The notes below the pieces were generated by a model, which was not told the DNA's origin, made no database searches, and was given only the letters and a program-made list of their open reading frames with translations. From positions 1 to 23,035 of IMG/VR virus record IMGVR_UViG_3300025423_000091: 23,035 bases of DNA. One strand, given 5' to 3'. Shown here one piece after another: positions 12,685-22,405 of the stretch (position 1 is its first letter; each line of letters starts with the position of its first letter). Both the position numbers and the translations under genes were made by a program. This DNA comes from a virus.

Positions 12685-13178
12685 TTTATCACTCCAAATA
12701 AATTTTTCTTTGCTACATTATCTCTACTGGATAATAATTGCAAGTTGTATTCTACATGCAAACCAGAAACTATTTTACCGTTAAGTGGAATAACATGATC
12801 TACATGGTACTGAATACCCTCAATATTAGATCTTCTTCTAGCTTGAGCATAGATAACTTCTATTGCAGATTTATTAGCCCAAGATGGAGTTTGTAACTGA
12901 TGCATCTTGTTTTTTCTAATTCTGTTTCTTGCATATATACTTGCAATATTATTCTTTCTATATTTCTTATTATATGCAGATACCTTTTCTTTGTTAAGAA
13001 GTCTATATTCTTTAGAGTACGCAAGATCTTTATCTTTACGTTTTGCTCTTGATCTAGCTTTTTGAGCTTTAATCTTTTCAGGGTTAGCAAGTCTCCATGC
13101 TTTCCTTTGTTGAGCAATTTTTTCTTTATTTTTATGATACCAATCTACATGGTATTCATTATATTTTTTACGATCCAT
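12681..13178 (-). CDS. HNH endonuclease, likely free-standing homing type
   Basis: 165 aa. The N-terminal two thirds is very basic with [16 protein letters not shown] and repeated short Lys/Arg/Tyr units, as in DNA-binding arms of phage HNH proteins. The HNH core is at about 124-158: [12 protein letters not shown] (His125, Asp127, His128), [12 protein letters not shown] (Asn145) and RDNVAKKN. It cuts DNA, probably as a mobile free-standing endonuclease. It fits its neighbours exactly, with TAATG at the upstream junction and ATGA at the downstream one. This is unusual for a recent insertion and suggests long residence. No sign of an intron is seen. Confidence 0.85.
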
Positions 13179-13882
13179 TAGACTATTTTACCATTCCATC
13201 TGCCATTTGTATTTAAAACCATTGGAAATAATTTAGGTTGACCATCAAGTATCATTCCTGTTCCAACAATAAAACGGGTCTTAAAGTTTTTAGCATACTG
13301 AAAAGCCAAACTTTTTTGATTAATTAACGATCCAACCTGCATGCCCCATACTAATGCATCAGGGTTAGAGTAATAACCAATACTAAACTTTGTATGGTAG
13401 TGGCCTTGAACAGTATGCATACCATATTGCATAGCTACTTTAAGAACATCAGCAGATAAGCCATGAGTAAAAAAGCAACGAGTGCCATCAGATAAGTCAA
13501 TTGTATGATCCTCCACCCATTTCCAATTACTACTTACACCAAGATACTCATTGTAATCTCTTAGATAGCCTTTTGGAACTCCATGCTTTAATGCACGTCT
13601 AAATAACATCGATGAGTGATTGGAGTGAACAATCGTCATCTTAGGAAAGATCTTTTCTAATTGCTGAATGTATGAAATAGCTGCAGCAAGTTCATGGCCT
13701 GCTGAAAAAAGATCTGGATCTGAATCATGCATAGACATTGCATGCATATCAAGCTCATCACCAATATTGACTACATGGTCTGGCTTATACTTCTTCTTTA
13801 ATGTTTCTAAAAATTTAAACGCATCTGGATGATGGTATGGAATGTGTAAGTCTGATATAACAAGTACTGATTTATATTTCAT
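13178..13882 (-). CDS. Calcineurin-type metallophosphoesterase
   Basis: 234 aa. The metal-binding motifs of the family occur in order: [10 protein letters not shown] (Asp11, His13), NIGDELD (Gly41, Asp42), VHSNHSS (Asn88, His89; the usual GNHD/E is changed to SNHS), FFTHG (His140) and VQGHYHTKF (Gly160, His161, His163). These bind two metal ions and hydrolyse phosphoesters; the target could be DNA ends, nucleotides or protein phosphates. The ATG is preceded by AAGAGAGGAAAAT, an unusually strong ribosome binding site. The gene lies 11 nt after the SprT-like gene. Confidence 0.85.
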
Positions 13883-13893
13883 ATTTTCCTCTC

Positions 13894-14238
13894 TTAAAGT
13901 TCAAGTTTATCCCAACCCATGAGTGTGTTAATTTGTCTCATATGGTTTCTAAATGATTGGTCGTGATGATGATAATTTGCTTTACCTTCTAAATAAAACT
14001 TCATGTGCACAAGTTCATGTGCAGTCGTTCTTAATAGATTTTCTACTGTCGATTGCCTAGCCGATGAAAGACGAATCACTAACGGGTCGCAATCAAATTC
14101 TCCCATAACTTCTGTGGCTGTAGTAACTTCAAAATTTACTTTAGATGGCGGTGGTAGCTTCCATGTATTGAAAGGATAGACAGATCGAAGAAAAACATAA
14201 GTTGCACGTAATGCCTCTTCATTGATAATAGTTTTCAT
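13894..14238 (-). CDS. SprT-like zinc metalloprotease domain protein
   Basis: 114 aa. HELVHMKFY at 74-82 is the zinc-binding HExxH motif with catalytic Glu75. A His-rich stretch (YHHHD, 89-93) can provide the third zinc ligand, as in SprT/Spartan-like proteases. The small size implies only the protease core without a zinc ribbon. Family members cleave DNA-bound proteins, and a phage form could clear host proteins from DNA; that role is inferred. GGAGG is close to the ATG, which overlaps the upstream stop as ATGA. Confidence 0.75.
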   Translation of the reverse strand: MKTIINEEALRATYVFLRSVYPFNTWKLPPPSKVNFEVTTATEVMGEFDCDPLVIRLSSARQSTVENLLRTTAHELVHMKFYLEGKANYHHHDQSFRNHMRQINTLMGWDKLEL

Positions 14239-20948: not shown

Positions 20949-21233
20949 TTAAGCCTCGCAATTGCCACTAGGACACATATTGTTAGTTAACATTACTTCT
21001 TCTAATTCATCGAAGGCTTTATCTTTAGCAATCGCATCTGCTGATCTACTTACATCATCAAGTAGATGATAATCAGTTTCTATGCATCGCATTTTAATTA
21101 ACATACCACGATCACGACCATGATCTGCTAATACAGAAGTAATCCAATCTGTAACTTCTATATTCCATGATTCAACTTCGTTGTATTTCTTTTCATCAAT
21201 TTCAACTTCGGCTAATACTAAAAATCGTTTCAT
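20949..21233 (-). CDS. Hypothetical protein
   Basis: 94 aa. A beta-strand start (MKRFLVLAEVEIDEKKYNE) is followed by an acidic helical part and a Cys-containing end (NNMCPSGNCEA), which may bind metal or form a disulphide. The ATG is preceded by GGAGAGG at 3 nt (AAGGAGAGGATATG) and overlaps the upstream stop as ATGA. Family not recognised. Confidence 0.65.
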   Translation of the reverse strand: MKRFLVLAEVEIDEKKYNEVESWNIEVTDWITSVLADHGRDRGMLIKMRCIETDYHLLDDVSRSADAIAKDKAFDELEEVMLTNNMCPSGNCEA

Positions 21234-21400
21234 ATCCTCTCCTTATCTAATCTATGTTGAACATCTTTTGATTGTTTAATTAATATATCCATTAATAAAT
21301 CTATACGATTGTTTGCTTCTTCAATCTTTTTAGCCATAGCATTCATTTTCTTAGCCATGTTTTCTAATTCGACTCTCATTCCTTGATTAATAATTTCCAT
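21230..21400 (-). CDS. Small coiled-coil protein
   Basis: 56 aa from ATG 21400 (MEIINQGMRVELENMAKKMN). A frame open to 21463 would lie inside the upstream gene, while GAGG lies 5-6 nt before this ATG. The whole protein is a probable coiled coil (AKKIEEANNRIDLLMDILIK). It may self-associate or bind a partner. Function unknown. Confidence 0.65.
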   Translation of the reverse strand: MEIINQGMRVELENMAKKMNAMAKKIEEANNRIDLLMDILIKQSKDVQHRLDKERI

Positions 21401-21402
21401 AA

Positions 21403-21615
21403 TTACCTCGTTATCCAAAACACATAAGCCATAAATGCTGCCCAACAAACGACAAATACCCAAAAGAATACGTTTAAACGCTTCTTCTCTTTACGAGCAA
21501 GCATAGCCGATTGGAACATATACATGTCCAAGTCAATATTTTTGTAGTGATTAGGATAAATGCGACCATTCTCTCTAGCTGGGTCAATAGGATTAATACG
21601 AATATTTTGCTTCAT
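21403..21615 (-). CDS. First gene of minus-strand operon; C-terminally anchored membrane protein
   Basis: 70 aa from ATG 21615 (MKQNIRINPIDPARENGRIY). A frame open to 21675 would start upstream of the promoter's transcription start, so it is rejected. AAGAGAGG lies 7 nt before the ATG. The N-terminal half is polar; the C-terminal part is basic (ARKEKKRLN) followed by one membrane helix (VFFWVFVVCWAAFMAYVFWI). It is the leader gene of the early operon and would be made first. Function unknown. Confidence 0.7.
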   Translation of the reverse strand: MKQNIRINPIDPARENGRIYPNHYKNIDLDMYMFQSAMLARKEKKRLNVFFWVFVVCWAAFMAYVFWITR

Positions 21616-21646
21616 TTCATTTCCTCTCTTAAATAAATGAAACCCT

Positions 21647-21675
21647 ATTATCTTACTAACAAAAACTAATGTCAA
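21647..21675 (-). promoter_or_regulatory. Sigma70 promoter of the minus-strand operon
   Basis: On the minus strand: TTGACA (21670-21675), exactly 17 nt, then GATAAT (21647-21652). Both boxes are near-perfect. Transcription would start at about 21640, giving a leader of about 25 nt with the AAGAGAGG ribosome binding site. This is the best promoter in the window and probably drives the whole early operon. Confidence 0.85.
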
Positions 21676-21871: not shown

Positions 21872-21900
21872 TTGACAAAACACAAGATATTGTGTAATGT
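21872..21900 (+). promoter_or_regulatory. Plus-strand promoter of the small RNA candidate
   Basis: Perfect TTGACA (21872-21877), 17-nt spacer, then TAATGT (21895-21900) preceded by TGTG (extended -10-like). Transcription would start near 21907 and run into the hairpins and terminator ending at about 22014. Confidence 0.55.
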
Positions 21901-21906
21901 TTTAAA

Positions 21907-22014
21907 TGTCAGATCCCTCTCTGTCTGATGCTTTCCTCTTTGTCTTCTCAGACTATCGGTGCCTCTCTCACCGACCCAAAAACCCTAGACTGATCATCTG
22001 GGGTTTTTTCTTTT
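21907..22014 (+). ncRNA. Candidate small RNA with two CCUCUCU loops
   Basis: About 107 nt between a promoter and a strong terminator, with no useful reading frame. Hairpin 1: TCAGA (21909-21913) with TCTGA (21924-21928), loop containing CCTCTCT (21916-21922). Hairpin 2: TCGGTG (21956-21961) with CACCGA (21969-21974), whose 7-nt loop is exactly CCTCTCT (21962-21968). Between them GTCTGA (21923-21928) can instead pair with TCAGAC (21948-21953), enclosing a pyrimidine-rich loop, so two folds compete. Hairpin 3 is the terminator. The loop sequence is the complement of AGAGAGG, the ribosome binding site of the genes starting at 21615 and 13882. A regulatory RNA is inferred. Confidence 0.5.
21978..22014 (+). 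terminator. Rho-independent terminator
   Basis: A-tract plus CCCTAGA (21978-21989) pairs with TCTGGGG plus T-tract (21997-22008): 12 pairs including one G-U, loop CTGATCA, followed by a T-rich tail TCTTTT. It ends the small RNA and separates it from the next promoter. Confidence 0.85.
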
Positions 22015-22021
22015 ATACCTA

Positions 22022-22049
22022 TTGCAAAAATTTTCAGTTTGTGTATTAT
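22022..22049 (+). promoter_or_regulatory. Promoter of the rightward operon
   Basis: TTGCAA (22022-22027), 16-nt spacer, TATTAT (22044-22049) preceded by TGTG, an extended -10. It lies just after the terminator, and transcription would start near 22056, at the beginning of the hairpin-rich leader. Confidence 0.6.
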
Positions 22050-22055
22050 TGTCAT

Positions 22056-22405
22056 TGAGAGTTTGAATGAGAAGATATTAAGAGGATGATTGGCCGCTTT
22101 GGCTCGTCTATCTCTTTTCGTCTTCACATAAAAACTATCCGTACTCCAAACGTTATCAATGAACCTAAATGGGTTGCGTGGAAGAATACATAGGCTCGAT
22201 TACACCTGTCGGCACGCCTCGTGATCTTAAATGGGTATCACACAAGTTTACTAGTCATGGGGTGGTTGGTCTTTGCCTCTAGTAAATGAGTCAACATTAA
22301 CTCAGTGTAGGATTGGTATTGAGTAGCAGTAATATCTCAGTATGGGTCAAAGGCGGTCATTACCACCCTTGGCAGAGCTATTGTCTAAAAATATGTAAAT
22401 AGGAG
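22056..22405 (+). ncRNA. Hairpin-rich leader or noncoding RNA, unassigned
   Basis: About 350 nt without a convincing gene, ending at the ribosome binding site of the first rightward gene. GC is about 44 percent over 22141-22380 (my count) against about 20 percent in a 60-nt coding sample just downstream (22561-22620). Stems seen: 22071-22084 with 22112-22125 (11 of 14 paired, with a further GATGA/TCGTC helix inside); GCGTG 22176-22180 with 22213-22217; GTGAT 22221-22225 with 22237-22241; TTTACTAG 22247-22254 with 22279-22286; TGAGT 22287-22291 with 22300-22304; TATTGAG 22317-22323 with 22336-22342; GGCGGT 22352-22357 with 22362-22367. It matches no riboswitch, ribozyme or tRNA I can recognise. 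Confidence 0.5.

Follow-up and report, generated by a model that had tools for sequence, protein, structure and literature searches.

A putative small RNA of uncultured phages with loops complementary to ribosome binding sites of the phages' own genes

How phages control their own early genes has been learned mainly from proteins and from a few antisense RNAs of model phages. The c4 antisense RNA of P1 and P7 has loops that are thought to pair around the ribosome binding site (RBS) of the phage ant mRNA, blocking its translation (PMC12197685). The c4 RNA and its target derive from one transcript, out of which c4 is processed, and C4 is an Rfam family. VpdS of phage VP882 and PreS of lambda are phage-encoded, trans-acting small RNAs (sRNAs), described with Hfq and with mainly host targets; an influence on the levels of phage mRNAs is also ascribed to VpdS (PMC12197685). 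Bacterial systems of related design are also described: the LhrC sRNAs of Listeria bind the Shine-Dalgarno region through repeated CU-rich loop sites (PMC4132741), while the alpha-r14/NfeR1 and "cuckoo" RNAs of proteobacteria consist of several hairpins with variable stems, each loop showing the same unpaired anti-Shine-Dalgarno motif (PMC10746234). Alpha-r14/NfeR1 pairs over about 8 nt at the start region through redundant motifs and blocks translation (PMC10746234); for both LhrC and NfeR1 the effect described is repression (PMC4132741, PMC10746234).

The window, that is the whole stretch of DNA analyzed here, is a virus record of 23,035 bases. Its structural genes run rightward, one of them matching a virion structural protein family, and its leftward genes include an exonuclease, an Erf-like annealing protein and a metallophosphoesterase; no integrase was found in five records examined, all of which may be fragments. 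Between the leftward operon and the rightward genes, which start from 22411, lies a non-coding stretch of about 800 bases containing the putative sRNA gene (Table 1). Its relatives are treated below as clade A, to which the window belongs, and clades B and C.

As in the alpha-r14 and cuckoo RNAs, repeated hairpins of the phage RNA show one motif on variable stems. Unlike them, it lacks the motif CCUCCUCCC in its loops (CCUCUCU, UCCCUUUC and UCCCUCG), phage G032 having CCUCCUUUCU only, and its motif is rewritten between clades; moreover, the alpha-r14 and cuckoo RNAs are chromosomal and target host transporter and ntrBC mRNAs, whereas the predicted targets of the phage RNA are the phage's own genes. 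With LhrC it shares CU-rich loop copies complementary to Shine-Dalgarno regions, two in clade A and up to three in clade B, but not the UCCC motif, the bacterial gene family or the host targets. Like c4, its loops are complementary to the RBS region of phage genes; unlike c4, it is a separate gene with its own promoter and terminator, on the strand opposite gene 1, and with several unlinked predicted targets. Rfam backs none of these likenesses, be it to alpha-r14/cuckoo, LhrC or c4: neither the window nor 12 related loci gave a match at gathering level, only chance-level hits (E up to 5). For VpdS and PreS, no RBS motif shared by the phage's own genes is described in the part of PMC12197685 consulted. 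By analogy, the sRNA would work like LhrC, alpha-r14/NfeR1 and c4, yet the tests applied place it in none of these groups: it has no Rfam match, a different motif and a gene of its own. No phage sRNA with an RBS tag common to several own genes was found in the literature searched, with most subscription journals outside the scope of the search.

Table 1. Positions of the predicted features in the window.
Feature	Position	Strand	Remarks
RBS AGAGAGG of metallophosphoesterase (13178-13882)	13888..13894	-	predicted target
RBS GAGAGG of 94-aa gene (20949-21233)	21236..21241	-	weaker predicted target, 6 nt
Gene 1, first gene of leftward operon	21403..21615	-	70 aa, no known family, hydrophobic C-terminal part
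RBS AGAGAGG of gene 1	21623..21629	-	predicted main target; 7 nt to both loops, 8 nt in V3 and V4
Leftward (early) operon promoter	21647..21675	-	TTGACA-17-GATAAT; 11/12 consensus positions
sRNA promoter, sigma70-like	21872..21900	+	TTGACA (21872-21877), 17 nt, TAATGT (21895-21900); alternative TGTAAT 21893-21898; read from sequence
Small RNA gene (putative)	21904..22012	+	about 105-110 nt; promoter, two hairpins and terminator
Hairpin 1	21908..21929	+	loop CCCUCUCU (21915-21922)
Hairpin 2	21956..21974	+	loop CCUCUCU (21962-21968)
Intrinsic terminator of sRNA	21978..22012	+	also delimited as 21978-22008
Second rightward promoter	22022..22049	+	TTGCAA-16-TATTAT; directly after sRNA terminator; conserved in clade A
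Conserved structured RNA, rightward operon leader	22139..22385	+	about 230-250 nt; synteny anchor for the sRNA across clades

The anatomy of the gene is evident at the level of sequence. The predicted fold has an energy of -30.2 kcal/mol (z -4.51), equaled by none of 200 shuffles, and both loops are predicted to be at least 0.99 unpaired. The sRNA promoter was missing from the list of a consensus promoter scan because its second hexamer is a poor match; the clade A variants retain TTGACA as well as the TAAT core, and clade B has TTGACA-17-TATAGT and similar promoters at its own RNA. That the region is transcribed is an inference, and a length of 105-110 nt is plausible judging only from the positions of promoter and terminator. 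A peptide product was considered and rejected, the short open reading frames of variants V1 and V2 beginning at different places.

The sequence-only reading had described this hairpin fold, an RNA of about 107 nt, two loops carrying the exact complement of AGAGAGG ahead of gene 1 and of the metallophosphoesterase, and a near match before 21233. The fold and the matches held, the last being the 6 nt GAGAGG, and the length is plausible, in the absence of expression data. It had also proposed that a competing fold (21923-21928 with 21948-21953) could switch the first loop, which is not supported as a conserved feature: the competing helix exists in V1, where it costs 3.5 kcal/mol, and the four other variants checked have no TCAGAC following hairpin 1.

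CCTCTCT occurs four times in the window, in the two loops (21916-21922 and 21962-21968) and at the RBSs of gene 1 and the metallophosphoesterase. The expectation on both strands is 1.72, and the bare count is weak evidence because 3 of 100 shuffles had four or more copies. Since Shine-Dalgarno sequences are purine-rich, pyrimidine loops find some sites anyway: with permuted loops of the same letters, the number of sites matched at 7 nt gave P values of 0.11-0.57 in five clade A phages, and gene 1 taken alone gave 0.035-0.11. The other genes of the window mostly carry different Shine-Dalgarno forms, and GAGAGG is absent before the 94-aa gene in V6 and V3. Permuted loops being nearly as good, the window alone does not settle RBS targeting.

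Clade A relatives were collected by pattern and protein searches and provided six distinct versions of the sRNA (V1-V6). The pattern search for the sRNA returned 22 loci, of which 12 belong to clade A, and none of the other 10 resembled this RNA gene, although L119 and L123 have a loop rich in pyrimidines. Locus L068, which sat in one comparison set, is clade A and was not counted as clade B. Across the six variants the loops keep CCUCUC, while the stem of hairpin 2 (CGGUG/CACCG, CGCUG/CAGCG or GGUGU/ACACC around a constant loop core) and the linker diverge; the pairs of hairpin 1 are maintained, including one A-U/G-U change, and the terminator stem changes its letters among relatives with pairing maintained. 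Two variants extend the match with gene 1 to 8 nt: in V3, CCUCUCUA in loop 1 faces UAGAGAGG at the RBS, and in V4, UCCUCUCA in loop 2 faces TGAGAGGA. A lengthened stem would be another reading of the V4 change in loop 2, which therefore counts as one event and no proof. GAGAGG precedes 18 of the 249 called starts of five clade A phages, against 0 of 241 in three clade B phages. Gene 1 was detected at 13 loci, exclusively in phages with this type of sRNA, and the sRNA is present in all 11 that reach its position. No relatives of gene 1 or of the region were found among 50,697 phage records, and a search of prokaryote genomes gave a single match, 11 residues long and regarded as chance.

A query with the core of the structured RNA that follows the sRNA gene identified 33 loci. 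Upstream of this core, other phages likewise carry a short RNA gene, with different loops. Relatives with other gene neighborhoods were considered as sRNA-free; this was rejected, the sRNA being found upstream of the conserved RNA. A scripted promoter-plus-terminator rule was met at 15 of 21 loci; of the six that failed, L148 and L152 were delimited by eye and L140, L147, L156 and L159 were excluded from all counts. L157, which resembles L141, was also excluded, and G022, which resembles G016, was not used. The clade B RNA (10 phages used) has three hairpins with the loops UCCCUUUC, a variable CU-rich loop and UCCCUCG, G030 and G032 differing in part, and ends in a terminator of the same kind as that of clade A, with similar sequence. 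Hairpin 2 of clade A (UCCCUCUCU in V3) resembles the third hairpin of clade B, the one with UCCCUCG. In clade C (six phages used, G017 and G019 sharing near-identical sites) the RNA contains CCUAGCAG, which several predicted folds place in a small hairpin.

The metallophosphoesterase, which is 85-88% identical between clades A and B, shows how binding sites follow loops. Its RBS is AAGAGAGG, containing AGAGAGG, in V1 and V2; CGAGGGA in G014, G029 and G033; GAAAGGGA in G015, G030 and G031; GAAAGG, a 6 nt match, in G028; and CGGGGGA in G013 and G027. In 8 of 11 phages the RBS matches the phage's own loops over 7-8 nt, through three different motifs, as against 6 nt at most with the loops of the other clade (A or B). 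G013 and G027 have only 4 nt of exact match to their own loops; reading the letters, CGGGGGA could pair with UCCCUCG over seven positions with one G-U. Gene starts were assigned by a mechanical rule, not always correctly; those of the metallophosphoesterase were corrected by the protein start, with the exception of G027, where the start lies a few codons upstream.

Clade C has a different motif. CTGCTAGG is found ahead of open reading frame starts 3, 5, 3, 4, 4 and 1 times in its six phages, versus an average of 0.00-0.16 and a maximum of 2 for 255 other NNNNTAGG 8-mers; the reversed pattern occurs 0-2 times per strand in 11 records searched. The targets predicted by sequence include the exonuclease in G016 and G018, and one gene carries the site in five of the six phages, located behind the structured RNA in G018, G020 and G021. 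Two small genes have CTGCTAGG sites in clade C and GAAAGGG instead in clade B. Overall, four families of orthologous genes have own-loop matches in two clades, with an RBS motif that differs between the clades. For this ortholog comparison the clade C loop was trimmed around CCTAGC after the motif had already been noticed, and the unbiased figure is that of the whole-RNA test.

That test covered 1360 start regions of 21 phages and took the whole RNA without its terminator. Complementarity of at least 10 nt was found at 22 sites with the phage's own RNA against 2.7 with the RNAs of other clades, and none of 5000 permutations, in which RNAs were swapped among phages, reached 22. With loops only, at 7 nt or more, clade B had 43 sites with its own RNAs against 9.7 with those of other clades, and clade A 14 of 247 against 8.9. 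For clades A and B together, the permutation was not significant with the whole RNA (P 0.23 at 7 nt and 0.37 at 8 nt); loops only gave P 0.019 for 7 nt and P 0.18 for 8 nt. Phages within a clade are related, so the counts are not independent events. The strongest support thus comes from clades B and C, and it extends to the window by homology (place, terminator sequence and likeness of hairpins).

By sequence, complementarity and the joint change of loops and RBSs are shown across the three clades. As a check, the sequence-only reading had suggested a search for paired changes of loops and RBSs in related phages, and this outcome is in its favor. It would have been refuted by conserved stems with unconserved loops, the opposite of what clade A shows, where loops persist while stems and linker change; or by matches no more frequent than in shuffled sequence, which is nearly the case in clade A but not across the family. 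Its proposal that loop pairing shuts down early translation is supported by the comparison as a reading; the shut-down itself is inferred, no effect having been measured.

The element is thus likely to be a phage-encoded, trans-acting sRNA that keeps ribosomes from binding several mRNAs of the phage itself, with expression and direction of the effect being inferred. According to this model, host RNA polymerase would make the sRNA from its own promoter, ending at its own terminator; given the host-type promoter, its synthesis may begin early in infection. Its loops would then pair with the Shine-Dalgarno region of several early phage mRNAs, in the window those of gene 1, which belongs to the divergent operon, and of the metallophosphoesterase, with 7 bp each, and that of the 94-aa gene, with 6 bp, and pairing there would hinder 30S binding, capping or switching off the target genes. 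Also inferred are repression as the sign, the timing (a shut-off of early genes) and any requirement for a chaperone such as Hfq.

Other explanations were weighed against this model. The pyrimidine loops might fit purine-rich Shine-Dalgarno sequences merely by composition, the RNA doing something else such as binding a protein. The clade A counts, close to those of permuted loops, speak for this possibility; it is nevertheless unlikely, as the predicted clade C pairing of 8-12 nt involves CTGCTAGG, a sequence unlike a generic Shine-Dalgarno, three RBS motifs of the metallophosphoesterase each fit their own loops, and the GAGAGG counts given above separate clade A from clade B. Also improbable is a generic anti-Shine-Dalgarno RNA directed mainly against host mRNAs, freeing ribosomes for the phage. 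The loops do contain CCUC, the core of the ribosomal anti-Shine-Dalgarno, and many targets are described for bacterial sRNAs of this kind (PMC10746234); however, the perfect anti-Shine-Dalgarno CCUCC is avoided by the loops of clade A and of 9 out of 10 clade B phages, and the loops track special RBS motifs of phage genes, with the reservation that the host is unknown and only phage genes were compared.

Two further alternatives appear very unlikely. The element stands at the start of the rightward operon, its terminator preceding the genes, as would an attenuated leader in which the terminator is regulated and the hairpins act in cis; but a second promoter lies right behind this terminator and is kept in the clade A alignment, and a joint change of loops and distant RBSs is not predicted by cis attenuation. 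Alternatively, the RNA started at the second promoter could be the main partner of the sRNA, as target or sponge, with RBS pairing secondary. Matches to the own sRNA near its start reach 12 nt in G032, 11 in G015, 10 in G016 and 9 in G017; however, only 8 of 21 phages reach a shuffle P of 0.05 or less, and clade A matches do not exceed 8 nt.

Within the preferred reading of a trans-acting sRNA, a bolder version can be put forward, although we would stop short of favoring it: a rewritable RBS code, in which phages of one freshwater family mark a set of their mRNAs with a shared, extended RBS tag read by one syntenic sRNA, tag and loop being replaced together between clades (AGAGAGG; GAAAGGG(A) and CGAGGGA; CTGCTAGG), perhaps as an escape from cross-control between co-infecting phages, and with the adjacent structured RNA, which at its 5′ end likewise matches the sRNA in several phages, as antagonist or partner. 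The comparative data suggest that uncultured phages have a translational switch that is read by RNA, acts on several genes and has targets that can be named, and the natural pairs of loop and RBS variants are ready-made compensatory mutants.

The adjacent structured RNA probably represents an undescribed family of freshwater phages: it has long invariant stretches, 16 of its 39 consensus pairs are changed on both sides, and it has no Rfam family match. The complementarity to the own sRNA mentioned above lies at the 5′ end of the second-promoter RNA (loci L150, L145, L141 and L146 for G032, G015, G016 and G017, respectively), which may be a sponge or a further target. The structured RNA is also held by MW202674.1 (L194 4550-5330), a named phage record from Manatee Spring; several genes of this record share the RBS ATATAGGTGA, and no clear match of loop and RBS was seen upstream of its structured RNA. 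As a separate observation, two unrelated contigs, L119 (301-390) and L123, carry a long hairpin with the pyrimidine-rich loop CCTCTCTCTCCTCTCTC ahead of a terminator; a T-A pair in the stem of the L119 hairpin is C-G in L123, and the hairpin possibly belongs to a separate RNA of similar design. L119 encodes PhoH- and ThyX-like proteins, as judged by eye.
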